Of a DNA stretch of 64,000 nt, positions 1,691-9,675 are shown piece after piece (the first letter of the stretch is position 1; each line of letters begins with the position of its first letter). Under the pieces are notes generated by a model, which worked only from the letters and a program-made list of their open reading frames with translations, searched no databases and was not told the origin of the DNA. Made by a program: the position numbers and the translations under genes. The DNA is from Bacteriovorax sp. Seq25_V (GTDB taxonomy: Bacteria > Bdellovibrionota > Bacteriovoracia > Bacteriovoracales > Bacteriovoracaceae), in NCBI RefSeq assembly GCF_000447795.1, contig NZ_AUNI01000010.1, forward strand, positions 62,001 through 126,000, read 5' to 3'.

Positions 1691-2674
1691 ATGAGTAAAG
1701 CGCCTGTTAAAATTACTAAAGACTTAACACTTCCAGAGACAGCTGGGGTGTATCATCGTGTCGTTTGTATGACAGGAAAGAATAAAGGTCTTTGTTATTA
1801 CCTTAATGGTAACCGAATGGTTATGGGGCGATCTAATAAGGCCGATATTCAAATTCTAGACACTCAAGCATCAAGAGAGCACGTCGAATTATCACGTGTT
1901 GGAAAGGATATCGTCCTTACTGATCTTGGCTCACAAAATGGCGTCGTAGTTAACGATCTCGATGTGAAACAGCACAAGTTAAAAAATGGCGACAAGATAA
2001 TAATAGGCTCGACAGTTTATAAGTATTCTATTCTCGATATTATGCCACTCGCTCTAGTTGAAGATGAAGACGATGATGAAGAAGAGGAAGAAGAAGTTGA
2101 AGAAGTAAAGTCTAAGGTAAAGAAGTCAAAAGCGAAGCCTAAGAAAAAGAATAATTTAATGTTGATTATTCTTATTCTTGCTGCTGCTTTTTTATTCCTT
2201 CCTTCAGATGAATCTGGTGATGCAACAAAGAATGCAAAGAATAATTCAAATACCACACCTTTTATAGAGGGAACAAAGAAGACTACGAGTAAGAAGTCTG
2301 ATGTGGAGAAAGAAGTTGAAACAAAGGTAGAAGCTTATATTCATCGTGGTAGGAGAGAGGCGAGAGAAGGGAATTACTTCAGAGCGATGGAGGAATTTGG
2401 TGTTGCTCTAATGCTAGACCCAAATAGTGGGGATGCTGCTTTTCATATGAATAGAGCTAAGCAGAGGTTAGATGAGAAAATCGAAGTTATGTTCTTACAG
2501 GCAACAAAATATAAAGACTCTTTGAAATTTCATCAGGCTTTAATGACATATTGTAGTGTCGTAAAGTTACTAAAAGATTATCCAGATGATGAAAGATTTA
2601 AAGAAGCCGATAAAAATGTAAAAGATATGGCAACTAAACTTGGAAAGGATGAACGTGATAATCACTGTTTCTAA
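1691..2674 (+). CDS. FHA-domain protein with single TM and TPR-like C-terminus
   Basis: The protein has 327 aa. An FHA domain (about residues 25-115) retains GRS, SREH and QNG. It is followed by an acidic run, a Lys-rich run and one membrane helix (LMLIILILAAAFLFLP, about 155-171). The remaining C-terminus is predicted to lie outside the cytoplasm and is helical and TPR-like (AREGNYFRAMEEFGVALMLDPNSG). The gene begins 6 nt after the preceding FHA gene and its 3' end overlaps the next one, so the three FHA genes form an operon. Its architecture matches the second half of the downstream protein, suggesting divergence from a common FHA-TM-TPR ancestor. No enzyme domain is visible. A role as a phosphorylation-responsive scaffold is inferred. 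Confidence 0.87.
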   Translation: MSKAPVKITKDLTLPETAGVYHRVVCMTGKNKGLCYYLNGNRMVMGRSNKADIQILDTQASREHVELSRVGKDIVLTDLGSQNGVVVNDLDVKQHKLKNGDKIIIGSTVYKYSILDIMPLALVEDEDDDEEEEEEVEEVKSKVKKSKAKPKKKNNLMLIILILAAAFLFLPSDESGDATKNAKNNSNTTPFIEGTKKTTSKKSDVEKEVETKVEAYIHRGRREAREGNYFRAMEEFGVALMLDPNSGDAAFHMNRAKQRLDEKIEVMFLQATKYKDSLKFHQALMTYCSVVKLLKDYPDDERFKEADKNVKDMATKLGKDERDNHCF

Positions 2675-4877
2675 AAATGGAAATATTCTACATAAAATTG
2701 AATTAGCTTCATTTGTAGTTAAAGGGCAGGCGTCTACCTTCTATATAGGTAGGTCAAATGAATGTCACGTAATTTTAGATGATCAAAAGATATCACGACA
2801 GCAATGCCAACTGAGTTTTGATGGCAAAATATGGAAGATTCGTAATTTGTCAGATTATGTTGATGTCACTGTTAATAATGCTCAAATATATTCAGAAAAT
2901 ATTTTAAATAATGGTGATCTACTTAAGGTCGATGAATTCAGTCTCACTTTTGAGTTTGAATCAGCTCATAATATTCAAGAGACACCAGAAGTTATTGATG
3001 AAGTTGATGACAGTACTGAAAATACCGCTGTCATTGAAGATCGTACCGAAACGATACAAGAGGATTTTAGTGCTGAGGATGATGGAACTTTAACTGTTGC
3101 AGAAGAGCCAGTTGATTACACCGAAGCCTTAGACGATACAGTAGAAGAGGAAGCACCTCAAACGCTAGATGATTTTGACCAGTCATTTGATGAAAGTGAA
3201 TTAACTGAGAATAACTTTGAAACCCCTAGTGACGAGACCATGGGGGAGGATGAGATGTTAGATGATTATGCGGATTCATATGATGATGAGTACGCAGTCG
3301 ATTCCTATGACGATGATGAGGGAACAAAGGTCTTAAGTGGATTTGCCAAGTTTTCATTAGAACTCTTTGGTGAGTTTGCCCCATACGACACTTTTAATAT
3401 TGAAGATTCTGAAGTTTTTATTGGTCGTGACCCAAAGAAGTGTAAGATCGTTCTTGCTGATCCAGAAGTTTCATCAGTTCACGCAGTACTTCGTAAAAAT
3501 AATATTACCTGTACATTAGAAGATTTACAGTCTGGAAACGGGACAATACTTAACGGAAAAAGGATTAACAAAAAAGATATCACAAATGGTGATGAGTTTA
3601 TTATCGGTGGGACAACATTTACTGTCCGTATTGGAAGCGAGTTCATCGATAGTCAAAAAGGCATGTTGATGCCTGTTGAAGAAAACCAAGTCGTCGAAGT
3701 TGAAGAAATTGTCGAAGTCATGGATGGTGACGATGCCGATTTTGACGGGGGAGAGGGTATTGACTCTAGTTCACTTGGCGGAAATAGTTCGTTATTCTCG
3801 AAAGAGGCACTTAAAGATCCTCAAAAGAGAAAGAAGCTCTTGATATATGCTGTCGTCTTAGTTGCCTTGTGGATTTTCTTGGATGATGGTGAGCAACCAG
3901 CTACTGAGACAGCAAAAAAAGCAAATGCCAAAAAGAATGAGAAAGTAGTCGAAGCTCAGAAACCTACTGAATCAAAGTTGACACCTGAGCAGGCCGCACA
4001 GGCAGAATCTCTTTATCAACTAGGGCAAGCCTTTCTTGTCGAGGGGAAGTATCCCGAAGCAATAGCTGAGTTTGAAAAGCTATTTTTGATCAAAAAAGAT
4101 TATAAAGAAGCAATTCAGTTAAATCAGCTTGCCAAGGAAAAACTAGCTCAGCTTGAAAAAGCAGAGCTAGAGAGACGAGCAGAAGAAGAACGCGCAATTA
4201 GAAAGAAGAAGGTACAAGAGCTACTTGAGAAAGCAGAAGTTGCAGTTAAAGAACGAAATGTATCATCTGCAGAAAATCTGTTTGTGAAAATTCGTGAAAT
4301 TGATCCAGATAATTACGATGTAACAAACTTAGAAATCGATTTAAATGCATGGAAAAAAGAAAAGGCGGAAAAAGAATTAGCTGAGGCCCAAAAAATTGCT
4401 GAGAGAAAGCGAATGGTTGATTCTTTAGCACCTGGTAAGGCTTTATATCTCAAAGAAGAGTGGTATCGTGCAATCGGCGAACTCGAAAAGTTCTTAACGA
4501 TTAAGAGTATGGATGAGGATCTTATTAAAGAAGGGACTGACATGCTTAAAGAATCTAAGGCAAAGCTTGGAGAGGTCGTAGAGCCTCTGCTTGGGAAAGC
4601 ACGTTCTTTGAAAGAAGGAGAAGATCTAAAAGGTGCCTATAACGTATACAATGAAATTTTAAAATATGATCCGACTTCTGTTGAAGCATTAAATGAGATG
4701 GATGATATTAAGTTCACTCTGACTTCGAGGGCGCAAAAAATATATCGTGAAGCTATTATTGCTGAATCTCTTGGTTTATTTGAAAAGGCAAAAGAGAAGT
4801 TTCAGGAGATTCAACAAATCACTCCTGAAGATAATGAGTACTATATTAAGTCTACTGATAGATTGAGGAATTTATGA
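2649..4877 (+). CDS. Tandem FHA-domain protein with TM and TPR/coiled-coil region
   Basis: The protein has about 742 aa. The first FHA domain (about residues 5-90) keeps GRS but has Q in place of the conserved His (SRQQ) and lacks the NG turn, so it may not bind phosphothreonine. A very acidic linker of about 140 residues follows. The second FHA domain (about 230-330) is near canonical (GRD, SSVH, GNGT). A membrane helix at about 400 precedes TPR-like and charged coiled-coil segments to the end. The start is uncertain. TTG 2640 and ATG 2649 are possible, but AAGGA sits at the best distance from GTG 2655. The 3' end overlaps the phosphatase start in an ATGA. One active and one degenerate FHA domain suggests a scaffold bridging several partners. 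Confidence 0.85.
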   Translation: MNVIITVSKNGNILHKIELASFVVKGQASTFYIGRSNECHVILDDQKISRQQCQLSFDGKIWKIRNLSDYVDVTVNNAQIYSENILNNGDLLKVDEFSLTFEFESAHNIQETPEVIDEVDDSTENTAVIEDRTETIQEDFSAEDDGTLTVAEEPVDYTEALDDTVEEEAPQTLDDFDQSFDESELTENNFETPSDETMGEDEMLDDYADSYDDEYAVDSYDDDEGTKVLSGFAKFSLELFGEFAPYDTFNIEDSEVFIGRDPKKCKIVLADPEVSSVHAVLRKNNITCTLEDLQSGNGTILNGKRINKKDITNGDEFIIGGTTFTVRIGSEFIDSQKGMLMPVEENQVVEVEEIVEVMDGDDADFDGGEGIDSSSLGGNSSLFSKEALKDPQKRKKLLIYAVVLVALWIFLDDGEQPATETAKKANAKKNEKVVEAQKPTESKLTPEQAAQAESLYQLGQAFLVEGKYPEAIAEFEKLFLIKKDYKEAIQLNQLAKEKLAQLEKAELERRAEEERAIRKKKVQELLEKAEVAVKERNVSSAENLFVKIREIDPDNYDVTNLEIDLNAWKKEKAEKELAEAQKIAERKRMVDSLAPGKALYLKEEWYRAIGELEKFLTIKSMDEDLIKEGTDMLKESKAKLGEVVEPLLGKARSLKEGEDLKGAYNVYNEILKYDPTSVEALNEMDDIKFTLTSRAQKIYREAIIAESLGLFEKAKEKFQEIQQITPEDNEYYIKSTDRLRNL

Positions 4878-5614
4878 TTGAGATTGAAAGCTATTATGCA
4901 AAAACTTTTCAGGGACCTTACCTCAATATCAATGAAGATGATATTATTGTAGATCTCGAAAGTAGACTCTTTGGAGTTTTTGATGGGTTTGGTGGCGGAA
5001 CTGTTGGTGATACAGCTGTCGCAATGGCCAGGGAGAAAGTCGGAGCATTCTTTACCAAGGTAAGTGTCGATCCTGATTCAACGATGCCATATTTCTTTAG
5101 TCCGAATTATTTATTAGAAACAAATTGTTTAATTAATGCCCTTGAGATTGCACATGCAACGCTTATTAATACAAATAAAGATAGACCAATGAATGAAAGA
5201 GCTGGTGTAAGTTGTCTTGTTGGTATTGTGAGTGAAAATATCCTGAGTCTAGCATCAACTGGAAATTGTGCAGGCTTTTTATATCGTGGAAATAAAGTTT
5301 CAGTAATCTCACCACCAGATACAATCACGCCAATTGGATCAATTGAAAATAATATGACAAATAGGACATTCCCTCTTTCTGGACTTGGTTTATTCGAAAG
5401 ATTAATGCCAAAAGTTTGGGAAATTAGTGTGCGAAAAGGTGATAAGATCTGTCTTCTGACAGATGGTGTTTATTCACGACTTGCTACTGATGATATTAAA
5501 ACAATTATTGAATCAACAATTACAGATGAACTAAACATAGTGAAGAGATTATTTAGTGTTTCTAACGATAGAGGTAACCTAGATAATCAGTCGGCTATTG
5601 TCATAACTCTTTAA
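4874..5614 (+). CDS. Divergent PP2C-family Ser/Thr protein phosphatase
   Basis: The 246-aa protein has PP2C landmarks in order: NED near the N-terminus, FDGFGGG where most members have DGHGG, LTDGVYSRL, and a terminal DNQSAIVI carrying the metal-binding DN. These Asp residues normally bind the two Mn/Mg ions that activate water to remove phosphate from Ser/Thr. The His of DGHGG is Phe, and the GDSR segment reads GNCAG, so the enzyme is divergent and its activity should not be assumed. It overlaps the tandem-FHA gene by 4 nt, implying tight coupling: FHA proteins read phosphothreonine and this enzyme may erase it. No partner kinase is present in the window. Confidence 0.88.
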   Translation: MIEIESYYAKTFQGPYLNINEDDIIVDLESRLFGVFDGFGGGTVGDTAVAMAREKVGAFFTKVSVDPDSTMPYFFSPNYLLETNCLINALEIAHATLINTNKDRPMNERAGVSCLVGIVSENILSLASTGNCAGFLYRGNKVSVISPPDTITPIGSIENNMTNRTFPLSGLGLFERLMPKVWEISVRKGDKICLLTDGVYSRLATDDIKTIIESTITDELNIVKRLFSVSNDRGNLDNQSAIVITL

Positions 5615-5671
5615 TTCTTTGTTGATTAGACGTCTATTTTAGGCAACAATAATAACTGGAGTTATTAATTT

Positions 5672-6832
5672 ATGACAAAAAAAATAATCGTTGCTGATGA
5701 CAGCCAAACAATTCAAAAAGTAATTAAAATCACCTTCGGGAGTAAGGGATATGAGCTCATTTCAGTTCTAAGTGAGAGTGAGCTTTATAATAAAATCTCA
5801 TCTGATGCTGACTTGCTACTTCTTGATTTTAGTCTGTCTGAAACAAAATCTGGATATGAGCTAGCAAAGGCTGTTCGTGAAAAGAATAAAACGATTCCAA
5901 TAATGGCCCTCCTAGGGACATTTGATACTATCGATGAGTCGCAATTTGTTGATTCCGGTTTCGCTGACAAAGTTGTAAAGCCATTTGAAACAGATAAATT
6001 TATACGTAAATGTGAAGCTCTTCTAAGTGCTGAGGTTGAGACTGCTACTGAAGTACTGGAAGAAGAGTCTGATGATGAGACTGATTTTTCTGATTGGGAT
6101 ATCAATTCACCTCAGGTTAAAGAAAGTGAAGCTGAAATTGAGGAGCTTGAAGAGTTCTCTGCTGATGCTTCTGATGAGATTGATTCAAATGACCTTGATA
6201 ATGAACTTGGAGGTTGGGGATTTAGTAAAGATGACCTAGCAGCAAGGGATTTAACAAATGATTATCCTGTATATCCTCCAGTAATCGAAGAGTCTAAAAA
6301 TATTGCTTCAAAATTCTTGTCAGCAAATACACTTGTTGAAGAAGTTGAAGATGAAGACTACACAGACTCAGAGGATGAAGTTACAAAAGAAATTTCTCTT
6401 GATGAGCTAGAGTCTCTTGATGCTGGTGATAGCCATGATGAGTTAGAAGCCCTTAGTGAAGAAGATATAGAATCATCTGATTTTTGGTCAGTTGATGAGG
6501 TTCTTTCTGAGCCAGAAGAGGTTTCTCTTATAGCAGAAGAAGAAATTGATTATGAAGAAGAGGAAACTGAAGCAGAACCTCTTGTTAATAACGATTTTCA
6601 CTACAATGTAATGGAGGGCAATAGTTCTCCAATGGTTGGGCTTTCTACTGAAGAGCTTAAAGAGGCATTGAAAGAAGACCTTTCTCCAATTGTTCATAAG
6701 TATGTTGATCAATACTGTAGAGAAAATATTGAAAAAATCATGTGGGATATTATTCCTGATCTAGCAGAAAATATTATTAAAAAAGAGCTTAAAAATATTA
6801 GTAAAGAGGTTTTAAGCTCTATTGATAATTAG
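5672..6832 (+). CDS. Receiver-domain protein with acidic linker and conserved C-terminal helix
   Basis: The 386-aa protein has a CheY-like receiver (residues 1-120) with the acidic pair D9/D10, candidate phospho-acceptor D52 and K103. The usual Thr/Ser after beta-4 appears to be Leu (IMALLGT), so the phosphorylation switch may be altered. About 200 residues of Glu/Asp-rich linker follow, then an amphipathic C-terminal segment of about 55 residues (DQYCRENIEKIMWDIIPDLA...). From memory, similar W-x-(V/I)-(V/I)-P-(D/E)-L-A-E endings occur in other deltaproteobacterial receiver proteins. There is no DNA-binding output. The layout recalls polar or motility hubs such as RomR and FrzS, but only by analogy. 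The last 21 nt overlap the convergent biotin ligase. Confidence 0.85.
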   Translation: MTKKIIVADDSQTIQKVIKITFGSKGYELISVLSESELYNKISSDADLLLLDFSLSETKSGYELAKAVREKNKTIPIMALLGTFDTIDESQFVDSGFADKVVKPFETDKFIRKCEALLSAEVETATEVLEEESDDETDFSDWDINSPQVKESEAEIEELEEFSADASDEIDSNDLDNELGGWGFSKDDLAARDLTNDYPVYPPVIEESKNIASKFLSANTLVEEVEDEDYTDSEDEVTKEISLDELESLDAGDSHDELEALSEEDIESSDFWSVDEVLSEPEEVSLIAEEEIDYEEEETEAEPLVNNDFHYNVMEGNSSPMVGLSTEELKEALKEDLSPIVHKYVDQYCRENIEKIMWDIIPDLAENIIKKELKNISKEVLSSIDN

Positions 6833-7495
6833 AGAGCCTGAGTAAATCTTAAGCTCTTTGTTATTGTTTTCAATAATGGCCTCTCCTGCGGGGCCAATTC
6901 CTTTAAAGATTCCATCAACTCTATCGTCACCATCAAGAATTGTAACTTTTTTTCCAAGGTGAACACAATTAGCATTCCAATCTGTAATTATCTGAGATGG
7001 TTCCATACGATTTTGCAATATGAATTCGTATATTGCTTTAGGTAGTGTTTCAAATTCAGTATCATTTAAAACAGCAGATGAGATTTCACCTTTACCTGTT
7101 TTATATTCTTCATGCTCTTCACCAACGCTCTGGCCCCAATTAAGACCAACTCCCACGATTGCAACTCCATCAATAAGTTGAATTAAGATTCCTCCACACT
7201 TATTGAGGTCTACAGATAGTAAGTCATTTGGCCATTTAAGTTTAACTTTTTCGCTGTCAATAAACTTGATCAGGAGTATGGCAATTTCTAGTGATGTGAG
7301 GGTTAGAACTTTTGATGGCGCAACCTTAAATGAAAAAGCTAGTGAGTTAGAAAATGAATCCCATTTGTTGGAAGAGCGCCCACGCCCTTTTGACTGATGT
7401 TTAGCACTAACTAGAAAATGTTCGGGTGAACCCTCGAGGTTTTCAATTAGATAGTCTTGAGTTGAGCTAATTGTGTCAAAATGTAGGTGTTTCAT
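6812..7495 (-). CDS. birA: Biotin--[acetyl-CoA-carboxylase] ligase
   Basis: The 227-aa protein is the catalytic core of BirA. It activates biotin to biotinyl-AMP and attaches it to the biotin carrier protein of acetyl-CoA carboxylase in the cytoplasm. The signatures are SSTQDYL near the N-terminus, [12 protein letters not shown] (the biotinyl-AMP loop), LKWPNDLL with the catalytic Lys, CGGILIQ, and GVGLNWG. There is no N-terminal winged-helix domain, so this is a monofunctional ligase that does not repress a biotin operon. It is divergent from rph and overlaps the receiver-protein gene by 21 nt tail to tail. Confidence 0.95.
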
Positions 7496-7553
7496 GGTGA
7501 CTCTGTTTATGTTAGAATTTCTTGTCTTTAATAATTATCAGCCTGAGGAATTT

Positions 7554-8261
7554 ATGTCACTAATTAAACGATCTGTACCTAGAGAAATCAAATTTCAAAA
7601 AAATATCAATCCTTATGCACTAGGGAGTGTTATTGCTGAGTTCGGTAATACGAAAGTTCATATTACTGCTACAATGGAAGATGGTGTCCCTCCATGGCTT
7701 AGAGGTCAAAATAGAGGCTGGGTAACGGCTGAATACTCAATGCTTCCAGGATCAACACATACAAGAAGTAGAAGAGAAGTTGGAAAACTTGGTGGCAGAA
7801 CTCAAGAGATTCAACGCTTAATCGCAAGAAGTTTAAGAGCAGTTATTGATTTAGAAAAATTAGGGGAAAGAATAATTACTCTTGATTGCGATGTTCTGGT
7901 AGCTGATGGTGGAACAAGGACAACATCAATTTCTGGAGCATACGTTGCACTAGAGTTAGCAATAAAGAAACTAATGAATGATGGTGTGATTACTGAAAAT
8001 CCAATTAAAGACAGTCTTGGGGCGCTTAGCATTGGGATTAATAAAAATGGTGAAGTTATCGCAGATTTAAATTACGAGGAAGATTCAAGCTGTGAAACAG
8101 ATATGAATATCGTAATGACAGGAACTGGAAAGTTCGTTGAAATTCAAGGTACAGCAGAGGGAGAACCATTTTCAAGCGAAGAGCTAATGGCCCTAATTGA
8201 TTGTGCAAAGACTTCCCTGGTACATGTATTTGAAGCACAGAAAAAGGTTTTAAGTGAATAA
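7554..8261 (+). CDS. rph: Ribonuclease PH
   Basis: The 235-aa protein is the phosphate-dependent 3'-5' exoribonuclease that trims tRNA 3' ends. Family hallmarks are [34 protein letters not shown] (phosphate and RNA binding) and [19 protein letters not shown] chose ATG 7554 over upstream in-frame starts because it has a good Shine-Dalgarno (TGAGGA at 7544-7549) and because the family begins with a short lead before the R-P-R-E-I-KF motif. Its stop overlaps the GTG start of rdgB, the common rph-rdgB pairing. A tRNA gene lies just downstream, the type of substrate it processes. Confidence 0.97.
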
Positions 8262-8859
8262 GTTTGTACTTGCGACAGGTAATGCTCATAAAGCAGAAGA
8301 ATTCGCAAAAATTTTTAATCCTGAAGTTTTGGAAATTTCGGCAGCCCCTGAAAAGCTCGAGGTTGTCGAAGACGGTGTGACTTTTCATGAGAATGCTTTA
8401 AAAAAAGCCAAGGCTTATTATGACAAATTTAAAACGCCAATTCTTTCTGATGACTCTGGAATTTGTGTGGCGGCCTTGCCAAATGAGTTAGGAATTCACT
8501 CAGCTCGTTTTGGTGGAGATGGCCTAACTGATAAAGACAGGGCAATGCTTCTTCTTGAGAAGATGCAAGACGAGAAAAATAGGGAAGCCTATTTTGTTTG
8601 TGTTCTCTGTTTTTATATCGATGAAAATAACATTTATTTCTTCGAAGGAAGAATGGAAGGCCAGATTAGTGACACCTATACTGGGGAGCATGGCTTTGGA
8701 TATGATCCAGTTTTCAAACCCTTAGCCCATGAAAGTGATAAGACAATCGCCGAGTTAGCTGAGTGGAAAGATGATAATTCCCACAGGGCAAAAGCTTGTA
8801 AGCAGGCTGAAATATTTTTTAGAGAAAGAAATTGCCAAAACGGAAAAGATAAATTATAA
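8254..8859 (+). CDS. rdgB: XTP/dITP diphosphohydrolase (HAM1/RdgB)
   Basis: The 201-aa protein cleans the nucleotide pool by hydrolysing dITP, XTP and related non-canonical purine triphosphates to monophosphate and pyrophosphate. It begins with [13 protein letters not shown], the family's T-x-N-x-x-K substrate-binding motif, and contains [23 protein letters not shown] and [11 protein letters not shown]. The GTG start at 8254 overlaps the rph stop by 8 nt. The length is typical of the family. It may be co-transcribed into the tRNA-Pro gene 22 nt downstream because no terminator separates them. Confidence 0.96.
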
Positions 8860-8881: not shown

Positions 8882-8959
8882 CGGAGCGTAGCGCAGTTTG
8901 GTAGCGCACTTGCTTTGGGAGCAAGGGGTCGGAGGTTCAAATCCTCTCGGCTCCGACCA
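8882..8959 (+). tRNA. tRNA-Pro (anticodon UGG)
   Basis: The cloverleaf has D arm GCGC...GCGC, anticodon stem CTTGC/GCAAG around loop TTTGGGA (anticodon TGG), T arm GGAGG-TTCAAAT-CCTCT, and an encoded CCA at 8957-8959. The acceptor strands CGGAGC and GCTCCG pair well, but the 3' strand contains one more base (CGGCTCCG) than a standard 77-nt tRNA-Pro, so one base may bulge at position 66. Its 3' end and trailing sequence are repeated twice downstream. Confidence 0.93.
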
Positions 8960-9092
8960 TTCTTTCCCAGTTCATTTTTAATATTACACGAACACAAATG
9001 GTCTTAAAAATATAGCGCTAACGCTTATATTTTTAGTTTTCGTTCTTACGCATCTTTGCGCCAAAGCCCGTTGGCCTTTGATCGCAAGATGT
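8950..9092 (+). repeat. tRNA-tail tandem repeat, unit 1
   Basis: This 143-bp unit starts with the last bases of tRNA-Pro (GCTCCGACCA) and its trailer TTCTTTCCCAGTTC. It then contains two hairpins. One is AT-rich with a GCGCTAACGC core (about 9007-9035). The other is a long imperfect palindrome (about 9049-9092, arms CATCTTTGCGCC.AAAG and CTTTGATCGCAAGATG). It is followed directly by a near-identical unit. The organisation resembles the repeats distal to E. coli tyrT. Confidence 0.88.
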
Positions 9093-9236
9093 GCTCCGAC
9101 CATTCTTTCCCAGTTCTAGTTTTTAATTTCACGAACATAAATGGTCTTAAAAATATAGCGCTAACGCTTATATTTTTAGTTTTCGTTCTTACGCATCTTT
9201 GCGCCAAAGCCCGTTAGCCTTTGATCGCAAGATGTG
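9093..9236 (+). repeat. tRNA-tail tandem repeat, unit 2
   Basis: This 144-bp unit again begins GCTCCGACCATTCTTTCCCA. From about base 50 to the end it differs from unit 1 at essentially one position (GTTAGCC instead of GTTGGCC). Differences cluster in the AT-rich stretch after the trailer. Both hairpins are preserved, which suggests recent duplication or selection for RNA structure. I found no convincing reading frame in it. Confidence 0.88.
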
Positions 9237-9292
9237 GCTCCGACCATTCTTTCCCAGTTCAGTTTTTTATTTCACGAATATAAATGATCTTA
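9237..9292 (+). repeat. tRNA-tail tandem repeat, partial unit 3
   Basis: The third copy keeps GCTCCGACCATTCTTTCCCA and the following AT-rich part through ATGATCTTAAA. It then diverges and lacks the long GC-rich palindrome. It leads into a bidirectional terminator at 9342-9366. The stretch from 8960 to 9340 holds these repeats and no gene. Confidence 0.82.
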
Positions 9293-9334
9293 AAGTTTCA
9301 GTGTTGATGCTAGAAATTTTAATTTGGTTTTATA

Positions 9335-9370
9335 AATCAAAAAGCACTCTTTCGAGTGCTTAGTTTTTAT
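9335..9370. terminator. Bidirectional rho-independent terminator
   Basis: A perfect 8-bp stem AAGCACTC (9342-9349) and GAGTGCTT (9354-9361) surrounds a TTTC loop. T-rich tracts lie on both sides: GTTTTTATT on the plus strand and TTTTTGATTT on the minus strand. It sits immediately after the stop of the small minus-strand gene and also closes the tRNA-repeat transcript. Confidence 0.85.
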
Positions 9371-9675
9371 TCTTGAGAAGATTCTTTTTTCTTCTCTTTC
9401 ATTTTCTTCTTCATTGCTTTTTTATGTTCTTGTCTTTTTTCTTTCATGCCTTTCATTTTCTCTTTCATTTTTGCACGACAAGACTTGAGTTCTTCACGAT
9501 TTTTAGCAGCAGAAATACAGGCCTTACCTTCAGTTAGACTTGAAATTCTTTCATCCATTCCTGCAAGGATTTTCGTTTTTGCTGCTTCAAACTTTTCACC
9601 TTTCTTTGCGTCTTTGTTGTCCGAAGCGAATGTACTGAGAGAAAAAATTGTAGCTAGAATTAAAAAATATTTCAT
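9367..9675 (-). CDS. Small secreted Lys-rich protein
   Basis: The 102-aa protein begins with a signal peptide (MKYFLILATIFSLSTFA, predicted cleavage before S18). The mature protein is highly charged and helical, with a Lys/Glu/Met-rich C-terminal half (KMKGMKEKRQEHKKAMKKK) and two Cys near the middle (ACIS and SCRA) that could form a disulfide. A good Shine-Dalgarno (AAGGAGA) precedes the start. It is monocistronic, with a palindrome in its leader and a terminator after its stop. I do not recognise a family. A periplasmic nucleic-acid, heme or metal-binding role would be a guess. Confidence 0.75.
   Translation of the reverse strand: MKYFLILATIFSLSTFASDNKDAKKGEKFEAAKTKILAGMDERISSLTEGKACISAAKNREELKSCRAKMKEKMKGMKEKRQEHKKAMKKKMKEKKKESSQE

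Follow-up and report, generated by a model that had tools for sequence, protein, structure and literature searches.

Behind a tRNA-Pro gene of Bacteriovorax sp. Seq25_V lie tandem repeats that each begin with the end of the tRNA gene itself. Repeats of tRNA ends, such as rtT of Escherichia coli, have been discussed mainly as sources of regulatory RNA, and the initial annotation of this locus pointed in the same direction. We asked what these repeats are and how they may have come to lie at a gene end, using a window of 64,000 nucleotides (the whole stretch of DNA analysed) and the genomes of relatives.

Tandem units behind tRNA-Pro

The host gene, a 78-nt tRNA-Pro(TGG) on the plus strand at 8882..8959, was identified by ARAGORN and Rfam, and an Rfam scan of the window returned the tRNA as its sole match. 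Tandem Repeats Finder delimited the array at 8949-9294 (period 143, 2.4 copies, 94% matches). Together with alignment, this bore out the two full units and one partial unit originally described: all on the plus strand, unit 1 spans 144 bp (8949..9092), unit 2 spans 143 bp (9093..9235) and partial unit 3 spans 59 bp (about 9236..9294). Unit 1 runs from the tRNA 3′ end with its trailer through a spacer to hairpin 1 and hairpin 2, while unit 3 holds the tRNA 3′ end, the trailer and the 5′ part of the element and has neither hairpin. As the annotation had stated, all three copies open with the tRNA 3′ end and trailer: (G)GCTCCGACCATTCTTTCCCAGTTC, comprising the acceptor 3′ strand, CCA and trailer, begins every unit. 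On the basis of direct reading, unit alignment and flank comparison, the first gene-end segment, GGCTCCGACCATTCTTTCCCAGTTC, was placed at 8949..8973, with further plus-strand copies at 9093-9116 and 9236-9260.

Each full unit contains a double-hairpin core, recognized by the covariance model R3 described below at 8998..9093 (72.3 bits) and 9141..9236 (67.6 bits), both on the plus strand. Within core 1, hairpin 1 (9004..9036, plus strand) has a conserved GCGCTAACGCTT apex and a covarying arm, and hairpin 2 (9049..9093, plus strand) sets its 3′ foot against the next gene-end copy; the hairpins of core 2 lie at ~9147-9179 and 9192-9236. When full units were folded, hairpin 1 was AT-armed and hairpin 2 contained internal loops, with z about -3.7 to -3.8 relative to dinucleotide shuffles. 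Aligned over 145 columns, units 1 and 2 are identical in 137, and their local alignment score of 126 compares with at most 19 among 500 shuffles. Of the eight differences, seven fall within the first ~50 bases (the spacer part) and one lies in the hairpin part, consistent with the two near-invariant hairpins per full unit noted at the outset.

Past the array, a terminator-like hairpin with a T-rich run, read directly in the sequence at 9344..9371 (plus strand), is probably the native tRNA terminator. Directly beyond lies a minus-strand open reading frame (ORF; 9367-9675, 102 aa) that is rich in Lys, Glu and Met and has a signal-peptide-like start; its repetitive coding sequence gives weak tandem-repeat calls at 9384-9472. 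Upstream, the ORF at 8254-8859 directly adjoining the tRNA gene was taken to be rdgB from its translation, and that at 7473-8261, on the same grounds, is presumably rph. The annotation was thus right to place rph upstream, although rdgB stands between it and tRNA-Pro. The tRNA itself differs from its 77-nt counterparts in relatives by an extra G (TCTCGGCTCCGA versus TCTCGCTCCGA), which belongs to the acceptor 3′ strand, where it is likely to form a bulge, and is also the first base of the repeated segment. It looks as if the acceptor 3′ strand had been rebuilt from the unit by slightly imprecise joining, although this is a single case that a sequencing error could also produce.

A local origin would be the simplest account: slippage between short repeats, with no mobility, would produce two and a half head-to-tail copies, and concerted identity is usual in arrays. 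The likeness to E. coli tyrT/rtT suggests a second one, in which the tRNA-Pro transcript runs through the units and is cut into small RNAs or serves as a nuclease sink. Read directly, tyrT of E. coli K-12 has three ~178-bp units, each of which closes with the 3′ end of tRNA-Tyr, and a different trailer after the last. E. coli rtT has a median copy number of 3, with 1 to 10 places per genome, and in the K-12 stretch scanned all Rfam rtT matches fell at the tyrT/tyrV locus. Our array has the same architecture, with head-to-tail units behind a tRNA, the tRNA 3′ end in each, structured sequence between and a different trailer after the last. The likeness proposed in the annotation therefore holds for architecture and not for the RNA family, since the RF00391 model found no match in the window or the whole genome up to E = 1, with a positive E. 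coli control. The RNA reading gains from the shared architecture and from the hairpins being the least changed part of units 1 and 2, and loses from the missing RF00391 match.

A dispersed family with two covarying hairpins

The genome has a further copy behind tRNA-Leu(TAA), where 92 bp match the unit at 77% identity; after it, 29 bases repeat without a mismatch the 3′ end and trailer of tRNA-Leu itself, not of tRNA-Pro. Because this copy carries the tRNA-Leu end, the double hairpin is the shared part, and the repeated tRNA end is taken from the host gene. The core accordingly measures ~95 nt with its two hairpins, and the whole unit ~145 nt. A core behind tRNA-Leu with the latter's own end counts against slippage, as do the spread over tRNAs and protein genes and the groEL insertion described below. 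Slippage is refuted as a complete account and is very improbable as the origin of the array, but may still explain its copy number.

Covariance models were built in three rounds (R1, R2 and R3) and run on relatives. R3 detected at least 78 cores in at least 26 of 129 genomes of the family, representing at least 12 of 48 genera; these counts are lower bounds, with limited candidates scored per genome and several assemblies fragmented. Among 240 further genomes of the phylum, the matches listed at E <= 0.001 were two weak ones (30 and 33 bits). Exact DNA patterns for the family were too strict and were dropped. A hairpin-2 pattern searched over 84,980 species gave 15 stretches, three of them in Bdellovibrionota-type assemblies, and contigs named through pattern search came from ‘Bacteriovoracaceae’ and ‘Oligoflexia’ assemblies. 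On inspection, the stretches in unrelated phyla, often inside genes, look like chance, as do two viral ones that represent one repeated coding match. Dispersed copies with no tRNA nearby were seen on JABIHA010000098.1 (L130) and JABIHA010000095.1 (L131) of a Bacteriovoracaceae assembly. A dispersed repeat unrelated to the tRNA had been named as the finding that would overturn the original interpretation; the core is indeed dispersed behind many tRNAs and protein genes, but its strong association with gene ends means that it is not unrelated to the tRNA.

Covariance analysis, proposed at the outset as a check of the two hairpins, found both to covary strongly. Paired positions had changed on both sides in 598 cells versus 95-151 for slid partners, and the covariation score was 0.488 versus at most 0.090 in controls, with none of 500 shuffles as good. 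The underlying alignment was fitted to the covariance model, which favours the structure. The effect size and an earlier 41-row count nevertheless make it hard to doubt that both hairpins exist in one strand at least. Free refolding of the 90-row alignment by RNAalifold recovered hairpin 2 only; support for hairpin 1 comes from per-copy folds, a curated alignment and pair counts. For the strand that folds, G-T wobbles (105) versus A-C pairs (75) give a difference too weak to decide. An intrinsic-terminator role for hairpin 1 was rejected on account of G+C-rich copies without a T run. Strong covariation in both hairpins speaks for the RNA reading; a selected RNA would be expected to covary just as much, and the correction of quasi-palindromes as DNA replicates would yield part of the pattern. 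Distinct copies within one genome have different stem sequences, which we counted against a mobile element in that it gives no sign of recent movement.

Gene ends, second gene ends and an empty site

Locations were assessed for 85 tabulated cores. A same-strand tRNA lies upstream of 31, with the first core 25-65 nt past the tRNA end; these sense hosts are tRNAs for Pro, Leu (three anticodons), Met, Ser (two), Asp, Arg, Val and His. Seven cores lie antisense on the 5′ side of a tRNA or tmRNA (Leu GAG, Trp twice, Ser, Arg and the tmRNA of genome G085). The two at tRNA-Trp have no direct repeat; one of them, in G141, abuts the EF-Tu stop codon with the foot of hairpin 2. Four further cores are antisense with the hairpin-2 foot on a CCA end (Leu CAA twice, Val and Ala), and 20 are antisense with the foot on the stop codon of an ORF encoding 100 aa or more, Pfam assigning these hosts to families that include EF-Tu, EF-G, GroEL, GMP synthase (GuaA), ribosomal protein S4 and CarD. 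Abutment on a stop codon was found for 23 of 85 cores versus 178 of 20,000 random positions (0.9%). In antisense cores, mostly 0 or 3 nt separate the stop codon from the conserved CCTGC/CCCGC of hairpin 2 (for example, L106, L105, L142 and L080), so that these cores are mostly phase-locked to the reading frame. Two cores (L114 in G059 and L160 in G015) lie beside cobalamin riboswitches; the sequence after them, AAGCCCGAAGACCTGCC, resembles the 3′ end of the riboswitch. The rest include several sense copies at protein genes and some unassigned cores. A junction sequence motif was looked for by eye, and none was found. Separately, tandem cores antisense and 5′ of tRNA-Leu(GAG) (L110/L123; G019, CATLVU010000050.1) repeat the complement of the 5′ end of this tRNA and its upstream region.

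This distribution bears directly on the RNA reading. In its favour, tRNA-linked copies are mostly sense and keep a near-constant distance, and RNAs of the rtT family near tRNA genes are expressed in Actinobacillus pleuropneumoniae according to Northern blot (PMC4986893). Against it stand the antisense copies 5′ of tRNAs and of a tmRNA and behind the stop codons of unrelated genes, as well as terminator-like hairpins between tRNA and core in G141 (tRNA-Asp) and G085 (tRNA-Pro). Moreover, at this tRNA-Pro gene the array is absent from most relatives. We consider a regulatory or processing RNA rather unlikely as the explanation of the array. A tRNA-Pro equivalent of rtT, as first proposed, is thus accurate for the position and not for the biology, given that one core family occurs at many tRNAs and protein genes, unlike rtT in the K-12 stretch scanned. 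For the suggested role as processing decoys for RNases, we found nothing in support, and some antisense copies upstream of tRNAs or behind stop codons would offer no tRNA 3′ end.

Sense copies share a layout in which an intact host gene on the left is followed by the core and, after hairpin 2, by a second copy of the host gene 3′ end. At metK in G003, both ends encode PWEELSYVEKLKALCL* (16 residues) and differ at 14 nucleotides over 17 codons with no amino acid change, a result that none of 200,000 simulations equalled. The two fabI ends in G089 show seven nucleotide differences and one amino acid change (66 of 200,000 simulations as good). As the differences are almost confined to silent sites, each copy must have had a history as coding sequence before the two came together, with at least one end coming from elsewhere; simple target-site duplication was dropped as the sole account for the same reason. 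An element arriving with a gene end of its own would be expected to leave this pattern, and homologous transfer of a larger segment would look similar. A restored host gene end with the native end displaced was found at metK, fabI and the RNA-methyltransferase-like gene of L167, in sense copies only, and in sense copies at tRNAs a terminator behind the second end also fits restoration of the gene end. At tRNA-Leu(CAA) of G003, two units share one common trailer, and the last gene-end copy runs into a terminator-like hairpin, as expected if it is the native end.

Among antisense copies of the stop-codon class, no second gene end was found. At groEL of G007, antisense units lie directly at the stop codon, and a terminator of the native type follows them. 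Four congeners are homologous up to the same stop codon and then have a terminator within about 30-45 bases, providing a clean empty site. The comparison identifies the G007 units as an insertion, not divergence; the insert looks tandem.

A candidate mobile element and its relation to known systems

Taken as a whole, these observations favour the array being a tandem amplification of a small, non-autonomous, two-hairpin mobile element that uses gene 3′ ends as insertion sites, with a probability of roughly 0.6. The sense order of gene, short AT-rich spacer, hairpin 1, hairpin 2, second gene 3′ end and own trailer or terminator would result if an element bearing the last bases of its target recombined at the end of that gene and pushed the native end aside. 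The antisense layout would have the foot of hairpin 2 joined directly to the stop codon or CCA end. Movement would depend on a trans-acting recombinase or transposase, whose substrate may be the folded single strand, with recombination presumably at the foot of hairpin 2. Tandem units may then arise through repeated insertion at the duplicated end or through unequal crossing-over, and any host RNA function would be secondary. Ordinary homologous recombination with a related species could also have brought the two gene ends together. The absence of a second gene end from antisense copies and the outcome of the recombinase scans given below likewise count against the mobile reading.

Phages and islands that restore the gene they enter provide the closest precedent, because there, too, incoming DNA supplies the gene end and the native one is displaced, matching metK and fabI. 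The cores might accordingly be attachment-site remnants of larger integrative elements, that is, tyrosine or serine recombinase islands at gene 3′ ends that have lost their cargo. Genes for tRNAs, tmRNA, guaA and groEL are typical targets of islands, and all of these kinds occur among our hosts. That an incoming attP can reconstitute the host tRNA is established (PMC10865867). In G015, a gene-bearing segment of ~4.3 kb separates the tRNA-Pro array from a fourth core (L107; G015:C4:327000-335000, about 1837-6300). This core is flanked by the same CCGACCAT ends as the array; the segment encodes, as judged by eye, a regulator, a cytochrome/FTR1-type permease and a cation-efflux-like protein, and a 140-aa ORF with a Pfam Recombinase domain adjoins the fourth core. 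In G096, a C-terminal phage-type integrase fragment (PF00589; 11679-11834 in L062) lies ~200-350 bp from a core. We treat this fragment and the Recombinase-domain ORF as leads only. No other such sequence was encountered on or near a core, and motif scans of ~12-20-kb regions around 20 loci detected no full-length tyrosine or serine recombinase. That nearly all copies lack cargo or a recombinase nearby, and that one hairpin family occupies dozens of unrelated targets, unlike the behaviour of a single integrase, make an island origin distinctly unlikely. The cores differ from such islands in their size of ~150 bp, the absence of genes or a detectable integrase, and their many targets per family.

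Palindromic repeats offer another comparison. REP/BIME palindromes often lie just behind stop codons, and our cores resemble them as palindromic repeats frequent at this position. The Yersinia palindromic sequences (YPAL/RU-2) and other bacterial miniature mobile repeats are likewise non-coding, span ~100-170 bp and have internal inverted repeats with insertion-site duplications of variable length, 3-26 bp for YPAL (PMC2229807). Spread of REP/BIME- or YPAL-like repeats by a transposase that targets 3′ flanks would account for small, structured, non-coding, intergenic copies in both orientations, often at stop codons, and rtT-like elements of E. coli and Enterobacteria do belong to the BIME repeats (PMC2965389). 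On the other hand, our family has two unlike hairpins in fixed order and tandem units that include the host gene end. Its hairpin-2 foot (helix 3) takes all pair types with compensation in place of the constant foot tetranucleotide of REP/BIME, and its second gene ends with silent differences are not simple target duplications. By description, YPAL is set apart by the exact gene-3′-end placement, these second ends and the two family-specific hairpins seen here. We therefore regard this origin as unlikely. Conventional MITE features (terminal inverted repeats, TA ends and duplications of constant length) were not seen: hairpin 1 and hairpin 2 are unlike each other, each folds locally and their order is constant, and direct repeats at cores vary from 13 to over 60 bp. 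Rickettsia palindromic elements are also small and occur in protein and RNA genes, among them tmRNA and M1 RNA (PMC2229807); those lie inside genes, whereas the cores are placed precisely at the gene end, and the product stays whole. When compared by eye with integron attC sites, the conserved apex GCGCTAACGC resembles part of the core site (RYYYAAC / GTTRRRY), but at the hairpin tip, not the foot.

The mobile gene-end element also casts rtT in another light. Membership of rtT-like elements in the BIME repeats (PMC2965389) and expression of rtT-family RNAs (PMC4986893) fit the idea of rtT-type arrays made from dispersed repeats, and the classic E. coli tRNA repeats may, by analogy, be mobile DNA and not a special tRNA accessory. 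More tentatively, there might be a new class of gene-free integrative elements of ~150 bp, new as judged within the open-licence literature, that capture a conserved gene 3′ end, cross species by means of a trans-acting recombinase on the folded strand, substitute their gene end for the resident one and accumulate in tandem, with rtT as the first-seen example; we hold this to be doubtful but conceivable.

The rtT-type architecture at this locus belongs to a family that occurs at the ends of many essential genes and can bring or duplicate the gene end, and the origin of rtT-type arrays becomes testable. The core family represents a compact natural system for gene-end insertion. It also carries a warning that the 3′-terminal bases of housekeeping genes and tRNAs can be foreign, as the extra base at the junction of the host tRNA-Pro may illustrate.
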